From contig NZ_JAAZQJ010000002.1 of assembly GCF_012275375.1 (NCBI RefSeq), positions 558,001 through 622,000 of the forward strand: 64,000 nt of DNA, read 5' to 3'. The notes under the pieces were generated by a model that saw nothing but the letters and a program-made list of their open reading frames with translations, did no database searches and was not told the origin of the DNA. Below, piece by piece: positions 7,896 through 62,951 of this stretch. Position numbers and translations under genes: made by a program. Numbering within the stretch: the first letter of the stretch is position 1; the number at the start of each line of letters is the position of its first letter. The DNA is from Dyella sp. SG609 (GTDB lineage: Bacteria; Pseudomonadota; Gammaproteobacteria; Xanthomonadales; Rhodanobacteraceae).

Positions 7896-8118
7896 GGGGC
7901 GTTTTGCGTATCTGGCGGAGAGGGTTGGTATAGAGAACCGGTGACTCGGCAAGCCGAGTCACCGGTTCGACGAATTCGCCGGGAGCGAATTCGGACAGCC
8001 GCAGGCTGGCCCCGCAGCGCGCAGCGCGAAGGGGTTCGGCCCATGGATGGGCCGAACAATCCCACCCCTCCCAACCGAAGCACGCGCCCTATCGAAGCCA
8101 AACAAAAACGCCCCTTCC
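7896..8118 (+). repeat. 223-bp tandem unit 2, multi-hairpin element
   Basis: Second copy. The central stretch equivalent to 7771-7840 is identical to unit 1, but hairpin 1 (7935-7950 and 7953-7968) and hairpin 2 (7971-7979 and 7985-7993) differ from unit 1 only by changes that keep every pair. Hairpin 1 has two compensated pairs, hairpin 2 has three, with the loop changing CAGGA to CGGGA. The antisense tRNA-Ser piece (7911-7925) has one mismatch. A third partial copy of the boundary stem begins at 8119. Together the units fill the whole gap between tRNA-Ser and dnaQ. Confidence 0.85.
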
Positions 8119-8128
8119 GGGGCGTTTT
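8103..8128 (-). terminator. Terminator of the dnaQ operon (bidirectional stem)
   Basis: AACGCCCC (8107-8114) and GGGGCGTT (8119-8126) around TTCC. Read on the minus strand, the stem is followed by five T and lies about 30 bases after the dnaQ stop. The same stem recurs at 7661-7680 and 7884-7903 as the boundary of the 223-bp units. Confidence 0.8.
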
Positions 8129-8158
8129 GCAGACCCAGCCGTGCGCAACAAGCAACCC

Positions 8159-8896
8159 TCAAGAAGCCACCACCTCCCCCACCACCGCTTCCTCTTTGCG
8201 CCAGATGCTCACCCCACCCGCACTCTTGTCCAGCGCGTCCAGCCGCAGCTCATGCGCCGCCACTTCGTCGGCATTCGCACGCAACACCTTCGGCCGCCGG
8301 CTAAGCACCGCCGGCAGGATCACCTGCGCGGCGCCCTGCTGCTCCGGCGCGCTCTCGAACGCCAGGTCCAGCGCGACCTGCCCCGAGGTCATGGCCAGGT
8401 AGACCTCGGCCAGCAGCTGGGAGTCGATCAGGCCGCCGTGCAGGTCGCGGGCGGAGTTATCCACGCCCAAGCGCTTGCACAGCGCGTCCAGGCTGTTGCG
8501 CTGGCCGGGGAAACGCTCGCGCGCCATTGCCAGGGTGTCGATCACCGGGCAGCGATCGGTAATGCGGCCGTAGTTGCCGTCAAGGCGAGCCAGTTCGGCG
8601 TCGAGGAAGCCCAGGTCGAAGCTCGCGTTATGGATGATCAGCTCAGCCCCATCGATAAAGGCCAGAAACTCACCGACCACATCGGCAAACCGCGGCTTAT
8701 CGAGCAGGAACTCATCCTCGATACCGGTGACCTGCTTCGCACCCTCGTCAATCAACCGATCCGGATTGAGATACGTCTGGTAATGGCGCCCGGTAGGACG
8801 GCGCTCGACCATCTCGATGCACGCGATTTCGATCAGGCGATGCCCCTGGCGGACTTCAAGACCGGTGGTTTCGGTATCGAGGACGATCTGCCTCAT
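8159..8896 (-). CDS. dnaQ: DNA polymerase III epsilon subunit (3'-5' proofreading exonuclease)
   Basis: A 245-residue DEDDh exonuclease. Exo I is VLDTETTG (Asp7, Glu9), Exo [13 protein letters not shown] (Asp94) and Exo [13 protein letters not shown] (His153, Asp158). The C-terminal tail after residue about 185 is the part expected to bind the polymerase alpha subunit. The ATG overlaps the rnhA stop by four bases, so the two are translationally coupled, the usual dnaQ/rnhA association in proteobacteria but here in tandem rather than divergent. A terminator shared with the repeat units follows. Confidence 0.95.
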
Positions 8897-9363
8897 CGCG
8901 TGCTCCTGTACTGCTCGGCCTGTTCGCGCGCGGCCACGTCGACGCGCTCGTTCTCCACATGGCCATTATGGCCGCGCACCCATTGCCAGCGCAGCTGATG
9001 CGTCGCGGTGGCAGTGGCAAGCCGCTGCCACAGGTCCTGGTTCTTCACCGGCTTCTTGTCGGCGGTCTTCCAGCCGTTGGCGCGCCACTTCGGCACCCAT
9101 TCCTCGATGCCTTGCATGACGTAGCGCGAGTCGGTGGTGAGCGTCACCTTGCACGGGCGCGTCAGCGCCTCCAGCGCGGCGATCGCGGCCATCAGCTCCA
9201 TGCGATTGTTGGTGGTGTCCGGCTCACCGCCTGCGATCAGGCGTTCGGTCCCCCTCGCGCGCAGCAGGGCGGCCCAGCCGCCCGGCCCCGGATTGCCGAG
9301 GCATGCGCCGTCGGTAAAAGCTTCCACTTCGGTCATCGTTACCTGCAATGGTTCGTCAGTCAT
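8893..9363 (-). CDS. rnhA: Ribonuclease HI
   Basis: A 156-residue enzyme cleaving the RNA strand of RNA-DNA hybrids. Catalytic acids are in [20 protein letters not shown] (Asp), [13 protein letters not shown] (Glu), [14 protein letters not shown] (Asp) and [13 protein letters not shown] (Asp), with the His loop [11 protein letters not shown]. The start at 9363 overlaps the upstream methyltransferase stop by four bases (ATGA), implying coupling. An internal ATG nine codons later ([10 protein letters not shown]) would give a more standard length and cannot be excluded. Confidence 0.95.
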
Positions 9364-10052
9364 GCGTCGGACGGGGCGCCGCGCCGCGCCCCGGGCGCCA
9401 GTTTCACGTTCACCGGCGCGGGTACCAGCGCCGGCTTCAATTTCGGCAGGATCGCCACCCGGCGGTTCTTGCGTGCGATCAGCACATACGCGCCACCCAG
9501 CGGATGCACGCCGCGGGCCTTGGCGCCGGCGTTGGGCCAGACATGCCCCACCCGCTCGACGCGTTCGATCTCCAGCTCTCCTGCCCTGACCCAGCGCTCC
9601 AGCGTCAGCGGCGAGGTGATCGCCGGCATGGTGGTATGGCGGCGCTGCCAGTACACCCAGGGCAGCCAGGCGCTGAGCGGATGCAGGCCGGTCACCGCCA
9701 GCACGCCGCCCGGCGCCAGCACGCGGCAGGCTTCCTGCAGCAGGGACTGCGGCACCGGCGCCACTTCCATCGCATGGCGCAGCAGCACCAGCCCGAAGGC
9801 GTCGTCGGCGAACGGCAGGGGCTCGTCGGCCCTGGCCTTCACGTCGCCCTGGTAACGCTTGCCGACCAGGCGCATGCGCGTCCAGTAGCCCAGCAAAGGC
9901 AGCACCGGCGGATGGTCGTGCGACAGCGCGGACAGCAGCAGCGCATGCGACCCCGCGCAGCGCTGCAGCAGCGGCGCCATGGCGGCGGCTTCCTCCGCCA
10001 GCAGGTGGCGTAGGTGCGCACTGGCGTAGATGTCGGGGTCGCGCTGCAGCAT
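9360..10052 (-). CDS. SAM-dependent methyltransferase (class I, type 11-like)
   Basis: A protein of about 230 residues, first gene of the methyltransferase-rnhA-dnaQ operon. The late methyltransferase motifs are visible: [20 protein letters not shown] (the acidic post-II region) and [20 protein letters not shown]. The glycine-rich SAM motif I is degenerate ([16 protein letters not shown]), so activity on SAM is inferred. The family is conserved next to rnhA in Xanthomonadales; its substrate is unknown to me. The ATG at 10052 is preferred; an in-frame GTG at 10103 would add 17 residues. Confidence 0.8.
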
Positions 10053-58079: not shown

Positions 58080-60245
58080 ATGTCCAGCAGCGAAAACCGC
58101 CCCAGCCTCACGGTCGAAGAAGCGCCCGCCACCGCCATGCCCGCGGGCGACGCGCAGGGCGCGCCGCCGGATCTCAACGACAGCAGCCTGTACATCCACC
58201 GCGAGCTGTCCCAGCTGCAGTTCAACATCCGCGTGCTGGACCAGGCGCTGGACGAGCGCAAGCCGATCCTGGAGCGCCTGAAGTTTTTGCTGATCTTCTC
58301 CAGCAACATGGACGAGTTCTTCGAGATCCGCGTGGCCGGCCTGAAGAGCCAGATCGCCTTCGACCACGAGATCGTCGGCCCGGACGCCATCGCCCCGCGC
58401 CGCGCGCTCACCGAGATCAGCGAGATCGCACACAAGCAGATCGAGCGGCAGTACACCATCCTCAACGAGAGCGTGCTGCCGGAGCTGGCGCGCCACGGTA
58501 TCCGCATCGTGCGCCGCAACGAGTGGTCGCATAAACAGAAGCTGTGGGTGCGCCGCTATTTCCGCCACGAGGTGGCGCCGCTGGTCACGCCGATCGGCCT
58601 GGACCCGACGCATCCCTTCCCGCTGCTGGTCAACAAGAGCCTCAACTTCATCGTGCAGCTGGAAGGCGTGGACGCGTTCGGCCGCGACTCCGGCCTGGCC
58701 GTGGTGCCAGCCCCGCGCGTGCTGCCGCGCCTGATCCGCCTGCCGGACGACGTGTGCGAAGGCGGCGAGAACTTCGTGCTGCTGTCCTCGATCATCCACG
58801 CGCATACCGAGGAATTGTTCCCCGGCATGTCGGTGCGCGGCTGCTATCAGTTCCGCCTGACCCGCAACGCCGACCTCACGATCGATCCGGAAGACGTGGA
58901 AGACCTCGCCCGCGCGCTGCGCGGCGAGCTGTACTCGCGCCGCTTCGGCGACGCGGTGCGCCTGGAAGTTGCCGACAACTGCCCGAAGGAACTCACCGAT
59001 TATCTGCTGAAGCAGTTCGGCCTTACCGCGGCGGAGATGTACGAGGTCAACGGCCCGGTCAATCTCACCCGCCTGATGGGCCTGGCCAACAAGTCGCATG
59101 CGCCGCAGCTGCTGTATCCGCCGTTCACGCCGGCCATCCCCAAGGCGCTGAAGAAAGAGGAAGACCTGTTCCAGGTGATCGGCAAGCAGGACGTGCTGCT
59201 GCTGCATCCGTTCGAATCCTTCGCGCCGGTGGTGGATCTTCTGCACCAGGCCGCGAAAGACCCGAACGTGCTGGCGATCAAGCAGACGCTGTACCGCAGC
59301 GGCGCCAACTCCGAGATCGTCGACGCGCTGGTGGATGCCGCGCGCGCGGGCAAGGAAGTGACCGTGGTGGTGGAGCTGCGCGCGCGCTTCGACGAGGAGT
59401 CCAACCTCACCCTCGCCTCGCGCCTGCAGCAGGCGGGCGCGATGGTGATCTACGGCGTGGTGGGCGTGAAGACGCATGCCAAGCTGATGCTGATCCAGCG
59501 CCGCGAAGGCGACGAACTGGTGCGCTACGCGCACCTGGGCACCGGCAACTACCACACCGGCAATGCGCGCCTGTACACCGACTACAGCCTGCTCACCTCC
59601 GACCAGGCGCTGTGCGAGGACGTGCACAAGCTGTTCAGCCAGCTCACCGGCATGGGCAAGGTGCTGCGCATGAAGAAGCTGCTGCATGCGCCGTTCACCC
59701 TGAAGAAAACGCTGCTGGAACTGATCGCGCGCGAGACCGCGCATGCGCAGGCCGGCCGCGCCGCGCAGATCATCGCCAAGGTCAACGCGCTGACCGACCC
59801 GAAGGTGATCCGCGCGCTGTACAAGGCCAGCATGGCCGGGGTGAAGATCGAACTGATCGTGCGCGGCATGTGCTGCCTGCGCCCCGGCGTGCCGGGCGTG
59901 TCGCACAACATCCGTGTGCGCTCGATCGTGGATCGTTTCCTGGAACACAGCCGCGCCTACTGGTTCGCCAACAACGGCGACGACGAACTGTTCCTGGCCA
60001 GCGCCGACCTGATGGAGCGCAACCTCGACCGCCGCGTCGAAACCGGCTTCCCGATCGAGAGCAAGAAGCTGCAGCAGCGCGTGAAGAAGGAACTGGAACT
60101 CTACCTCGCCGACAACAGCAGCGCGTCGGTGCTGCAGGCGGACGGCCATTATCACCGCCTCGCACCGTCCGGCCAGGCGGTACGCAATGCGCAGGCGCAG
60201 CTGCTGGAGCGCATCTGCGGCGTGGGCGCCAACCCCGTCGAATAG
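58080..60245 (+). CDS. ppk: Polyphosphate kinase 1
   Basis: A 721-residue enzyme making polyphosphate from ATP. The family opens [46 protein letters not shown] (residues about 40-86). The autophosphorylated His466 is in [13 protein letters not shown]; the second catalytic segment is [43 protein letters not shown] is also diagnostic. It ends [14 protein letters not shown]. The 40 residues before the first conserved segment are low-complexity. A second, unrelated pair of genes starts 122 bases downstream. Confidence 0.96.
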
Positions 60246-60367
60246 GCCGCCACGTGCAGGCTTCGTGAAGGGCCAGGCGAGCGTGATGGAGTTCTGGTTT
60301 GACCTGATATCCCGGTGCTAGTCTCGATCGGCCGCATTGTCGCGGCTCAATCGCAAAGGGCATTCAC

Positions 60368-60541
60368 ATGGAACTTCAGGAACTCACCGTGCGTGAAGAA
60401 GGCGTGATTGCAGCTGACGTGTTCGGCGTGCCGATGGACGCGCCGATGCAGAAACAGGCCCCCATGCAGAAGCGTGCGCCGAAGACCCGGTTCGACGGCG
60501 ATATCGGCACCTTCGGCGGCCGCAACGACGGCGGCGGCTGA
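60368..60541 (+). CDS. 57-residue peptide, possible RiPP precursor
   Basis: An orphan peptide with a good AAGGG ribosome site seven bases before the ATG. It has an acidic first half (MELQELTVREEGVIAADVFG), a short basic stretch built from three imperfect six-residue repeats (APMQKQ, APMQKR, APKTRF), and a glycine-rich C-terminus (FDGDIGTFGGRNDGGG). A leader rich in Glu/Asp with a distinct hydrophilic tail, followed by a terminator and an asparagine-synthetase-like gene, is how RiPP precursors are organised. It does not match the canonical lasso arrangement of Thr at -2 with Gly/Ala at +1 and Asp/Glu at ring position 7-9, so the class is open. No homologue is recalled. Confidence 0.65.
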   Translation: MELQELTVREEGVIAADVFGVPMDAPMQKQAPMQKRAPKTRFDGDIGTFGGRNDGGG

Positions 60542-60583
60542 GTCGCCGCGCAACGTGACCACGCGCCCTCACGGGTGACCGCC

Positions 60584-60612
60584 AAGCCGCCTCGCCAACG
60601 GGGCGGCTTTTT
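60584..60612 (+). terminator. Terminator between peptide and cyclase genes
   Basis: AAGCCGCC (60584-60591) pairs with GGCGGCTT (60602-60609) around a 10-base loop, followed by TTTTT. It lies 42 bases after the peptide stop and 38 bases before the next ATG. In RiPP operons such a stem lowers expression of the enzyme relative to the peptide. Confidence 0.8.
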
Positions 60613-60650
60613 CATGCCGGTATGGCTGGCCCGCCTTTCATGGACGGAAC

Positions 60651-62219
60651 ATGCTCAAGGCCACGATCGCGCTTGCCGATCTTGCATTCGATCCGCGCTG
60701 GGACGGCCAGGCCGTCGCCTTCGGCGCCAGCCGCATCGAACCGTTCGCGCATCCCGCGCTGGAAACCCTGCTGGTGCGCACCGACGGCCAATGGTTTGCC
60801 ACCGTGCGCGAGCGCCGCACCGAAGGCGGCGCGCCGGCGCGGCAACTGGACGTCGACGCGGCCGAATTCGAACAGCGCTACCGCGAATGCCTGCTGTGGC
60901 CGCTCGATTACGCCATGGTCGAAGCGGCGCAGGCCGGGTGCCGCCTCAAGCTGCGCGCAGGCGTGTTCGGCGCGTTGCCGGTGTATGCGCGCGCCACGGA
61001 CGACCGGCTGGAACTGTCCTGGGATGCCGGCGACCTGACCCGCGCGCCGACCGCGCTGGACTTCGAAATAGCGAGCCATCGCCTCGCGCTGCACACGATC
61101 TACTCGGCGCGGCAGATCGCGGTCGGCATCGTGATGCTGACCGAACGCGCCTCGCTGTCCGTCGAACCTGGCAAGGCCAGCTATCACTATCCGCCGCCGG
61201 TGCAGGTCACCACGCTGGCGCAGGCGCGCGAGCGCGACGCATGGCTGGCTTCATTCGCCGCGCAATTGCGCGAAGCAGTCGATGCGCGCCCGTTCGTCGC
61301 GGCACGCAGCGCACTCGAACTCAGCGGCGGCATGGACTCGGCCACGGTGGCCTGCGGCCTGGCCGCGATCGCCGCACCGCGCAGCAGCCTCGGCATCCTG
61401 CTCGAAGGCGAGACCCGGCCGCCGCAGTTGAAGCGCCGCGGGGCTATCGTGGAACGACTTGGGCTGCACGACGAAACGGTGGAGATCGCTGCGCGGTCCC
61501 CAAGCCTCGACCTGCGCCCGGTGCCGGGACAGCGGCTGGGCTTCAATCAGGAGTATTACCTGGAGGCCTGCGCCGCACTGTGGGATCGCGCCGCGTCGCT
61601 CGGTTGCGACCGGCTCTATACCGGCGTGGGCGGCGACGAGCTGTTTCCCGACTACCTGCACGAACTGGCCAGCGAAGGCGACACGCTCGAAGCGCAACGC
61701 GAGCGCACGCACCGCGCACAAGTCGACACGCTGCTCACGCCGCGCGCGCGGGAGGCCGCGCGCGGCCTGCACAGCTTCGGCGCGCCAGCCGGCCCGGTGC
61801 CGGCCACCGCGCTCGCCGCGCAGGCCTGCCGCGCAGCGGATATCGCACGGCGCGGGCTGTGGCCGGTGAATCCATTGAGCGATCCGCGCCTGGCGCGGTT
61901 CTGCCATCAGCTCCCGCTCGAGCAACGACGCGGGCGCGCCCTGATGCAGCGCTATCTGCAGCAGCAGCTCGGCGAGGATACGTTTCCGGCCGGTTATCGG
62001 AAGGAGACGTTCGAGCAGGTGTTTCCAGCTTTGATCGCGGCACAGGCGGGCATGCTGACGGAACAGTTGCGCGAATGCGCGCTGGCGGATCTTGGGCTGG
62101 TCGACCGGCGTGGCGTGATGGCGCTGCTCGACGCGGTAGCGGCCAGCCAGGCGCGTGCGCCGACGGCGGTGCTGGTGTCGTTTCTGTGGATGGAGCGGTT
62201 GGCGAGGCAGTGGGGGTGA
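60651..62219 (+). CDS. Asparagine-synthetase-like protein (macrolactam/lasso-cyclase type)
   Basis: A 522-residue ATP-binding enzyme. The PP-loop motif SGGMDSA is at 225-231 and a second nucleotide-site motif, GVGGDELFPDY, begins at about 325. The N-terminal 200 residues resemble a class-II glutaminase fold but lack the essential Cys2 (the protein begins MLKATIALADL), so it cannot use glutamine. Length and layout match the lasso peptide cyclase McjC (N-terminal inactive GATase plus C-terminal Asn-synthase), which adenylates a side-chain carboxylate to form an isopeptide ring. It starts with GGACGG upstream. There is no B-protein (transglutaminase-like peptidase) or transporter next to it. Confidence 0.85.
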   Translation: MLKATIALADLAFDPRWDGQAVAFGASRIEPFAHPALETLLVRTDGQWFATVRERRTEGGAPARQLDVDAAEFEQRYRECLLWPLDYAMVEAAQAGCRLKLRAGVFGALPVYARATDDRLELSWDAGDLTRAPTALDFEIASHRLALHTIYSARQIAVGIVMLTERASLSVEPGKASYHYPPPVQVTTLAQARERDAWLASFAAQLREAVDARPFVAARSALELSGGMDSATVACGLAAIAAPRSSLGILLEGETRPPQLKRRGAIVERLGLHDETVEIAARSPSLDLRPVPGQRLGFNQEYYLEACAALWDRAASLGCDRLYTGVGGDELFPDYLHELASEGDTLEAQRERTHRAQVDTLLTPRAREAARGLHSFGAPAGPVPATALAAQACRAADIARRGLWPVNPLSDPRLARFCHQLPLEQRRGRALMQRYLQQQLGEDTFPAGYRKETFEQVFPALIAAQAGMLTEQLRECALADLGLVDRRGVMALLDAVAASQARAPTAVLVSFLWMERLARQWG

Positions 62220-62227
62220 CTATGGAA

Positions 62228-62394
62228 CCCTTCTCCCCTCCGGGGAGAAAGTAGCGGCAGCCGGATTAGGGGTGGGTGCTCGCGATTACGCTTCTACGAA
62301 AAGAAGAAAAGCTCTTGAGCTTATCGAGACCCTCCACTCACCGCTCCGCCCGGCCCCTCACCCCGACCCTCTCCCCGGAGGGGAGAGGGAGCAA
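62228..62394. repeat. Dispersed CTCTCCCC/GGGGAGAG repeats, copies B and C
   Basis: Copy B (62228-62275) has TTCTCCCCTCCGGGGAGAA followed by GGATTAGGGGTGGG; copy C (62352-62389) has the inverse arrangement, CCCCTCACCCCGACCCTCTC then CCCGGAGGGGAGAGGG. Together they fill most of the gap between the convergent cyclase and reductase genes. They belong to the same family as the copy at 38355. Confidence 0.75.
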
Positions 62395-62402
62395 ACTGCG
62401 CT

Positions 62403-62951
62403 TCAGCGAAAACGCTTTATCCATGCCACGTACTTGTCCACGAACCCTTGCAGGAACTTCTTCGTGCCGTCGCTCGAAATATTCCCCTCGCCGTCGATCA
62501 ACCCGTCCTTGTACGCAATGAACACCTCCGGCTGCGCCAGCAAGGGCACGTCCACATAGGCCAGCACATTGCGCAGATGCTGCTGCGACAAGGCCGAGCC
62601 GGTCGCGCCGATCGAGGCGCCGATCACCGCGCCGGGCTTGCCCGCGAAGGAATTCGTCCCCCACGGCCGCGAGGCGATGTCGATCGCGTTCTTCAGCACG
62701 CCGGGAATCGAACGGTTGTATTCGGGCGTCACGAACAGCAGCGCATCCGCCGCTTCCACCGCCTGCTTCAGCTGCTGGCACGCGGCCGGATAGTCGCCGT
62801 CGAAATCCTGGTTGTAGAGCGGCAACCCGCCGATGTCGATGTGCTCGAACGAAAGATCCTTCGGCGCCAGCTTTTCCACCGCACGGGCGAGTTTGCGGTT
62901 GATCGAATCCTGGCGAAGGCTGCCCACGAAGACGGCGACCTTGGTGCTCAT
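62403..62951 (-). CDS. NAD(P)H-dependent FMN reductase (chromate/quinone reductase type)
   Basis: A 182-residue flavodoxin-like reductase starting MSTKVAVFVGSLRQDSINRK. The FMN-phosphate loop VGSLRQDSINRKL and the segment FVTPEYNRSIPGVLKNAIDIAS, which contacts the isoalloxazine, are typical of ChrR/YieF/azoreductase-type enzymes reducing quinones, chromate or azo dyes. The upstream extension to 63029 is unlikely. It is convergent with the cyclase gene. Confidence 0.92.
   Translation of the reverse strand: MSTKVAVFVGSLRQDSINRKLARAVEKLAPKDLSFEHIDIGGLPLYNQDFDGDYPAACQQLKQAVEAADALLFVTPEYNRSIPGVLKNAIDIASRPWGTNSFAGKPGAVIGASIGATGSALSQQHLRNVLAYVDVPLLAQPEVFIAYKDGLIDGEGNISSDGTKKFLQGFVDKYVAWIKRFR

Follow-up and report, generated by a model that had tools for sequence, protein, structure and literature searches.

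A conserved pair of a short peptide gene and an asparagine-synthetase-like enzyme gene in Dyella, proposed to form a Lys-Asp macrolactam

The window analysed here is a stretch of 64,000 nucleotides from Dyella sp. SG609 (contig NZ_JAAZQJ010000002.1), and its subject is a pair of genes on the plus strand, 3' of ppk (58080-60245): one for a peptide of 57 residues and, after a gap of 109 nt, one for an enzyme of 522 residues from the asparagine synthetase (AS) superfamily. A first-pass annotation had described two open reading frames (ORFs) and a T-run hairpin as a compact unit after ppk, and each of these elements was found as given there. The two genes, the parts of the peptide and the intervening hairpin are as follows.

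60368..60541, plus strand: precursor peptide gene, 57 aa, ATG start; an ORF matching the homologue profile at E 1.2e-22, with the window peptide itself one of the 36 rows of that profile.
60368..60481, plus strand: leader-like part, residues 1-38; the motif of relatives, NPFGIQMDGPMQ, reads ADVFGVPMDAPMQ here, with the leader Pro26.
60482..60484, plus strand: codon AAG of Lys39, the proposed nucleophile; Lys stands 6 or 7 residues before Asp in 48/48 peptides.
60485..60499, plus strand: variable ring loop, residues 40-44, TRFDG; 31 different loops occur in 48 peptides.
60500..60502, plus strand: codon GAT of Asp45, the proposed acceptor carboxylate; Asp in 48/48 peptides and an invariant alignment column.
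60503..60538, plus strand: C-terminal tail, residues 46-57, IGTFGGRNDGGG; tails of 6-15 residues, variable in sequence, among 48 peptides.
About 60585..60612, plus strand: hairpin and T-run between the peptide and enzyme genes, attenuator- or terminator-like; folded segment of -19.2 kcal/mol, with conservation.
60651..62219, plus strand: AS-like enzyme gene, 522 aa, ATG start, proposed Lys-Asp macrolactam synthetase (PF00733; AlphaFold2 model; alignments A1 and A3).

The pair is real and conserved. A genome search located the enzyme in 31 of 233 genomes of the bacterial family, at 37 places and with 50-100% identity, and the peptide profile matched the same 31 genomes and none of the other 202. 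The two genome lists were matched by eye, at most six candidates were scored in each genome displayed, and because the profile was built from these same genomes, the informative half of the comparison lies in the 202 blanks. At all 36 of the 37 enzyme places that were opened a peptide gene was found nearby, so that the loss of the peptide frame beside a retained enzyme, which the first-pass annotation had named as a refutation, did not occur. The peptide gene ends 76-165 nt upstream of the enzyme in 32 of the 36 places, lies downstream of it in three (L058, L059, L060) and is present in two copies, 0.45 and 2.2 kb upstream, in another (L062). Dyella marensis has the pair with an enzyme 83% identical, and in Luteimonas gilva two peptides accompany a single enzyme. 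The earlier labels of orphan peptide and cryptic locus are not supported; supported is the description of a peptide and an AS-like enzyme arranged like a system for a ribosomally synthesized and post-translationally modified peptide (RiPP).

Extra precursor genes without an adjoining enzyme were found in three genomes (G103, G112, G116), and tandem precursor copies also occur. The lone precursor genes at L133, L134 and L135 are in genomes that hold the pair elsewhere, which suggests that one enzyme may serve several peptides. An order-wide scan of 398 genomes added the pair in four genomes of a second family, which are probably Xanthomonas, because a neighbouring symporter gene shares about 98% identity with the X. 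sacchari gene. A class-wide scan of 369 genomes gave the enzyme in no genome but the window's own; a phylum-wide scan of 349 returned 18 others, partial matches (model positions 86-345) in frames of 596-957 aa, whose length and similarity mark them as ordinary AsnB-like proteins and which were therefore rejected. These class and phylum negatives are soft, as at most four candidates were scored per genome. Phage records gave no match, and a different AS-like fragment from Legionellales (L004) was set aside.

Across the 48 Xanthomonadales peptides, which comprise 47 different sequences, the spacing is Lys-x5-Asp in 38 (Lys39-TRFDG-Asp45 in the window) and Lys-x6-Asp in 10, with no Arg in place of Lys and no Glu in place of Asp. 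Both codons are used for each residue (AAG 34 and AAA 14 for Lys; GAT 33 and GAC 15 for Asp). In a MAFFT alignment of 36 peptides, Pro26 and Asp45 are invariant and the Lys39 column is at least 90% Lys, the remainder arising from rows displaced by the gaps that the two spacings require. The leader Pro precedes Lys by 12-17 residues, 12-13 in 44/48 peptides and 17 in the other 4. It had been suggested that the acceptor is an Asp of FDGDIGTFGGRNDGGG, which is borne out and can be narrowed to Asp45. Lys39, the key residue, had been overlooked, and the stated absence of Asp or Glu at position 7-9 was mistaken if Lys39 is counted as residue 1, Asp45 then being residue 7.

The surroundings of these residues vary. 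Position -1 to Lys is occupied by P in 30 peptides, M in 10, H in 4, L in 2, and W and F in 1 each, and position -2 by seven kinds of residue, a variability that is not like a single protease site. Tails differ by branch (IGRIGSTHSGGDWG, ARWYYSGG, SRWYSTQPGG, GRGYYRG), some being rich in Tyr or Trp, and the C-terminal residue is Gly in 41/48 without being invariant. The Gly-rich tail of the window peptide is replaced by other tails in relatives and is not the conserved part. On a quick tree of the enzyme, the Lys-Asp spacing needs three changes, and Nei-Gojobori ratios of nonsynonymous to synonymous substitution (dN/dS) were below 0.5 in 11 of 12 hand-picked peptide pairs. As judged from the sequences, the unit has the general RiPP layout of a linked precursor, conserved leader, variable core and enzyme. 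A very improbable alternative is that no RiPP is made and that the peptide instead regulates, or forms a small subunit of, an enzyme acting on a free amino acid; a unit of just two genes, beside which the window genome shows no obvious dedicated transporter or tailoring gene, would suit such a role. However, the variable loop and tail around a fixed Lys and Asp, the leader-like conserved half, the extra and tandem precursor genes and the intergenic hairpin form the pattern of a precursor instead of a subunit.

Plasmids carry further relatives of this precursor and its enzyme, and the unit thereby recurs among bacteria of soil and plants. A protein search matched the enzyme in 53 plasmid records, with identities of 50% in Xanthomonas sacchari, 47% in Mesorhizobium and Aminobacter, 39-41% in 12 of 13 Bradyrhizobium records and 26-30% in one Bradyrhizobium record and those from Rhizobium and Streptomyces; overall, enzymes at plasmid loci are 24-50% identical to that of the window. 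At the 18 plasmid loci that were opened (Xanthomonas, rhizobia, Streptomyces), 38 small upstream ORFs were collected with no motif filter, 1-3 per locus, and 18 of the 38 contain the motif, exactly one per locus. As a background, the motif falls in the last 26 residues of 112 of 2975 (3.8%) ATG-started ORFs of 30-65 aa at the loci, a count that includes the true precursors. The motif peptides include LPKVRLPGDSATLMYYL (Mesorhizobium), YPKGPFPSDSANEGYL (Bradyrhizobium), MIKGGKPGDMDKLDV (Rhizobium), TKFVLSGDSARFRY (B. japonicum), and DKPAGTEDQGYRDEN and DKAAETSDQGRFED (Streptomyces). With these, Lys-x5-Asp or Lys-x6-Asp is present in 66/66 peptides (48 plus 18 from plasmids), and the residues between are variable.

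The enzyme weakly matches the Pfam Asn_synthase family PF00733 (33 bits, E 5e-8) and falls far below the cut-offs of the NCBIfam models for an albusnodin-type macrolactam cyclase (NF033561, 32 bits against 300) and lasso peptides (NF033535, 18 bits against 525), as do nine of its relatives. Three segments stand out in the alignments.

61323..61340, plus strand: PP-loop SGGMDS, residues 225-230, ATP pyrophosphatase motif; S225, G226, G227, D229 and S230 invariant in A1 and A3.
61623..61646, plus strand: GVGGDELF loop, residues 325-332; residue 326 is V/I/L in 35/35 near relatives.
61995..62012, plus strand: YRKETF segment, residues 449-454; Lys451 invariant in A1 and Glu452 invariant in A3.

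The SGGxDS and GxGGD motifs of the ATP site are invariant in 19 diverse members. Residue 326, in contrast, is Glu or Asp in five of six AsnB-like proteins (these five show GEG or GDG; the sixth did not match the GxG pattern) and is variable in far relatives of the enzyme. The glutaminase cysteine is missing, as had been noted earlier: residue 2 is Leu in the window and L in 21, I in 13 and F in 1 of the 35 sequences of A1, never Cys. The six AsnB-like proteins were trimmed at their MC start, and their Cys2 is therefore not an independent result.

An AlphaFold2 model of the enzyme (predicted local distance difference test score, pLDDT, 90.3; predicted template modelling score, pTM, 0.90) has the predicted fold of an asparagine or beta-lactam synthetase. 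It aligned with the hydroxyamidotransferase TsnB9 over 471 residues (Z 21.6) and, across both domains, with carbapenam and beta-lactam synthetases and AsnB over 386-403 of 522 residues (Z 18.7-19.8). No lasso cyclase was among the structure matches listed, which excludes nothing. A phmmer search of the PDB with the single enzyme gave no match, and a profile gave two (E about 0.001), to an NAD synthetase and a beta-lactam synthetase. In a maximum-likelihood tree, the 26 members included group together in a single clade (100/100), separate from six proteobacterial lasso cyclases and 11 AsnB-like proteins; the tree is unrooted, long branches meet in it, and its lasso sample is proteobacterial, with actinobacterial and albusnodin-type cyclases left out. 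By a genus tally, the 53 plasmid records of the enzyme and 26 plasmid records found in the reciprocal search with a lasso cyclase have no genus in common.

AS enzymes adenylate a carboxylate, which is then attacked by an amine. Because the glutaminase Cys is gone, the amine must come from elsewhere, and the simplest nucleophile is the side chain of Lys, since this residue is never replaced by Arg and keeps a set distance from an Asp that is equally invariant and never replaced by Glu. The pair is thus probably a two-gene RiPP system in which a macrolactam is formed between Lys39 and Asp45 without prior removal of the leader, the bond itself being inferred. The ribosome would make the 57-residue precursor, whose residues 1-38 would serve as a leader; as no conserved gene for a recognition element lies by the pair (no search aimed at a B1/PqqD-like element was made), the enzyme itself would bind this leader. 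In an ATP-dependent step like that of AsnB on free Asp, the enzyme would then adenylate Asp45 at its side-chain carboxylate, which the Lys39 side-chain amine would attack in place of ammonia. With the loss of water, this would give a Lys39-Asp45 isopeptide and a 26-atom ring over seven residues (eight in 10/48 relatives). Trimming and export may follow through general peptidases and transporters.

The same enzyme chemistry might instead alter the invariant Asp by amidation to Asn, by conjugation with a free amine or by an aspartimide-type dehydration, with Lys serving only to position the substrate. Such outcomes would accord with the amidation and nitrilation carried out by other AS-like RiPP enzymes, which can use free ammonia (PMC13060819). 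They are quite unlikely here, as the glutaminase Cys is lost in all 35 rows of A1, the acidic loop residue of the AsnB-like proteins is replaced in all 35, and a Lys fixed at 6 or 7 residues from Asp exceeds what positioning needs. Amidation of the C-terminus was likewise set aside, given that the terminal residue is not fixed and Cys2 is lost.

Attack by the Lys39 side chain would need no protease to expose an alpha-amine, which would explain why the B protease of lasso systems is missing. The window's own genome contains a single match to the lasso B protease family PF13471, below the cut-off and in a 650-aa frame; a stand-alone B protein had been named earlier as something to look for. Among 35 pair-bearing genomes, 29 have a PF13471 match, and a near full-length, intact one occurs in only three (G065, G172, G431), in frames of 240-254 aa remote from the pair. 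The remaining matches are partial, in frames of 504-658 aa, apart from a 163-aa frame with three stops (G104), and none of the matches listed adjoins the pair. In G065 and G172, the full-length B protein belongs to ordinary lasso loci (L136 and L138) with their own SGGxDS cyclase and xanthomonin-like precursors, ETQGGPLTNEVIGGF or ETKGMAGITENFGL. For G431, the 3.3 kb covered by the analysis showed no cyclase.

The main rival to the side-chain bond is a lasso-like ring, in which cleavage before Lys39 by a housekeeping or unlinked protease would free its alpha-amine for the enzyme to join to Asp45, leaving a tail that may thread the ring. Counted from Lys, Asp would be at position 7 in 38 peptides and at 8 in 10, within the range of 7-9 given for lasso rings (PMC9266682). 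The enzyme belongs to the same superfamily as lasso cyclases, several tails carry Trp or Tyr that could plug a ring, and an ABC transporter gene, often included in lasso clusters, lies near some rhizobial loci and at two of three Streptomyces loci. However, the invariance of Lys is unexplained if only its alpha-amine counts, Thr occurs at position -2 in just 1/48 peptides when Lys is taken as residue 1, no B protease is linked to the pair, the enzyme clade is separate from the six lasso cyclases sampled, and two pair-bearing genomes keep ordinary lasso loci with dedicated machinery elsewhere. Taken together, these points make a lasso-like product unlikely.

The first-pass annotation had reported that the B protease and the Thr at -2 are missing and had raised a different macrolactam class; the absence of a linked B protease and of Thr(-2) holds, and that class is supported as a reading. 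Directly observed are the pair and its co-occurrence, the invariant Lys and Asp, the loss of Cys and the separate clade, and the fold is predicted. There is a slightly better than even chance that this is a separate RiPP class, in which an AS-fold enzyme staples an invariant Lys side chain to an invariant Asp six or seven residues on, with the leader still attached and no protease. It would span Xanthomonadales, plasmids of legume symbionts (some beside nif and quorum-sensing genes) and Streptomyces, with kinase, acetyltransferase and ABC transporter genes in some lineages.

Several observations weigh against a Lys-Asp staple of this kind. The pathway is known here from sequences and a predicted fold, a ring of seven or eight residues from Lys would also be expected of a lasso ring starting at that residue, and the model retains the glutaminase-like domain as a fold even though its Cys is missing. 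A second Lys/Asp pair fits the spacing in 15/48 peptides, and in these the pair at the aligned position was taken. The distant peptides were first picked by a Lys-Asp/Glu motif, for which the filter-free recount is only a partial cure, and many of the 18 plasmid loci barely differ from one another (three Bradyrhizobium peptides have the same sequence, and one core is common to five from Rhizobium); the Streptomyces peptide of L160 is without a close supporting homologue and is the least sure of the 18. Between the window peptide and its nearest relative, dN/dS is about 1, with too little change to judge. Finally, PF13471 reaches its cut-off in 23 of the 35 genomes, 20 of these having been discounted as partial or broken.

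AS-like enzymes partnered with short peptides are already known; what is new here is the conserved Lys/Asp pair, the lack of a linked protease and the clade of its own. Lasso peptides of the benenodin and xanthomonin type resemble the pair in their AS-like ATP-dependent enzyme, short precursor and Asp acceptor, with the ring of 7 or 8 from Lys, whereas the pair has no linked B1/B2 protease, no Thr(-2), an invariant Lys and a clade apart from the six sampled cyclases; unlike lasso clusters, its 18 opened plasmid loci have no gene annotated as a lasso isopeptidase. Graspetides, including microviridins, are omega-amide RiPPs with side-chain Lys-Asp lactams, made on leader-bearing precursors by ATP-grasp ligases. 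The proposed bond and the use of a leader and an enzyme are similar, but the enzyme of the pair is PF00733 by Pfam and by fold, not ATP-grasp (no search aimed at ATP-grasp genes was made). Beta-lactam and carbapenam synthetases form intramolecular amides in small-molecule substrates and have the same two-domain AS fold as the enzyme of the pair, with which they align structurally at Z 19-20 and 12-16% identity. Asparagine synthetase B differs in that the enzyme of the pair starts with ML and has a GVG loop, with neither Cys2 nor the acidic loop residue. TsrC, ScdTA and PesC are AS-like RiPP enzymes that carry out C-terminal amidation or nitrilation with ammonia, which PesC takes from glutamine (PMC13060819); they share superfamily and peptide substrates with the enzyme of the pair, which differs in lacking Cys2 and in acting with a peptide of no fixed C-terminus.

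One survey counts about 300 uncharacterised AS-like RiPP candidates (PMC13060819), and the pair would, if the proposal is true, fill part of this space. One enzyme and one peptide would then suffice to obtain a peptide stapled through Lys and Asp residues encoded in its gene and, as no leader protease would be needed, unlike in lasso systems, would make a simple engineering tool. No description of the Lys/Asp peptide-enzyme pair was found in the open-licence PMC literature, judged by titles and abstract openings, with subscription papers mostly outside. PMC3538637 contains a named asnB gene, whose identity with the enzyme of the pair is not shown there, and the word 'asparagine' is missing from the main text of PMC13133039.

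In a comparison of neighbours at 36 locus entries (about 8 kb each), no gene family of at least 80 aa was widely common besides the enzyme and peptide, and the largest other family was present in 7/36 at scattered distances; two entries are one region, and five Xanthomonas-type loci were outside this comparison. The earlier remark on a missing transporter agrees with the absence of a conserved transporter neighbour in the bacterial family. The five Xanthomonas-type loci have S9 peptidase and symporter genes in common. In Xanthomonas sacchari the pair lies between S9 peptidase and peptide symporter genes, which raised the possibility of a linked isopeptidase; the same genes flank the four g67 loci, which may be plain synteny. 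Of 59 loci compared, no other has the symporter, and the S9 gene has only partial matches of 27-28% (L063, L065).

At four opened Rhizobium loci, the pair adjoins an acyl-homoserine-lactone synthase gene, followed in two by nifHDK, and in Pop5 and B. japonicum S06B luxR/luxI-type genes lie within about 5 kb. Having nifHDK and acyl-homoserine-lactone synthase genes as neighbours on Rhizobium plasmids suggests that the peptide belongs to the root environment, where it may play a role in symbiosis or competition. Four rhizobial loci (L156, L165, L169, L170) have phosphotransferase and GNAT acetyltransferase genes 3' of the enzyme, possibly for tailoring or immunity, some of these loci also having GntR regulators or ABC transporters close by, and the ABC genes of the two Streptomyces loci are 56% identical to each other. 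In peptide clusters, genes of the kinase, acetyltransferase and transporter type commonly serve tailoring, immunity or export, and such neighbours fit a peptide product.

Between the two genes, a hairpin followed by TTTT is present in 25 of 32 homologous intergenic regions (-15.7 to -24 kcal/mol), and the other seven, without TTTT, have inverted repeats visible by eye. A generic terminator scan of 60230-62450 picks up this hairpin with two such sites against 1.3 expected, so that its weight rests on conservation; it could raise peptide relative to enzyme expression. No sigma-70-like promoter was detected in a generic scan of the same interval. In Rhizobium johnstonii 3841 (L168, pRL10, 7938-9380), the enzyme is annotated as 366 aa and similarity continues beyond, so that the gene appears to be disrupted there, while its peptide partner keeps an open frame; whole enzyme copies occur in other Rhizobium strains. 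On a plasmid of Streptomyces sp. NBC_00334 (L160, 7470-8216), the enzyme gene overlaps at its end with a gene for a methyltransferase, which possibly provides a tailoring step in that lineage. Directly 3' of the enzyme gene in the window, an imperfect 29-nt inverted repeat (83%; 62229-62257 and 62361-62389), rich in CCCTCTCCCC/GGGGAGAGGG, looks like a dispersed intergenic repeat.

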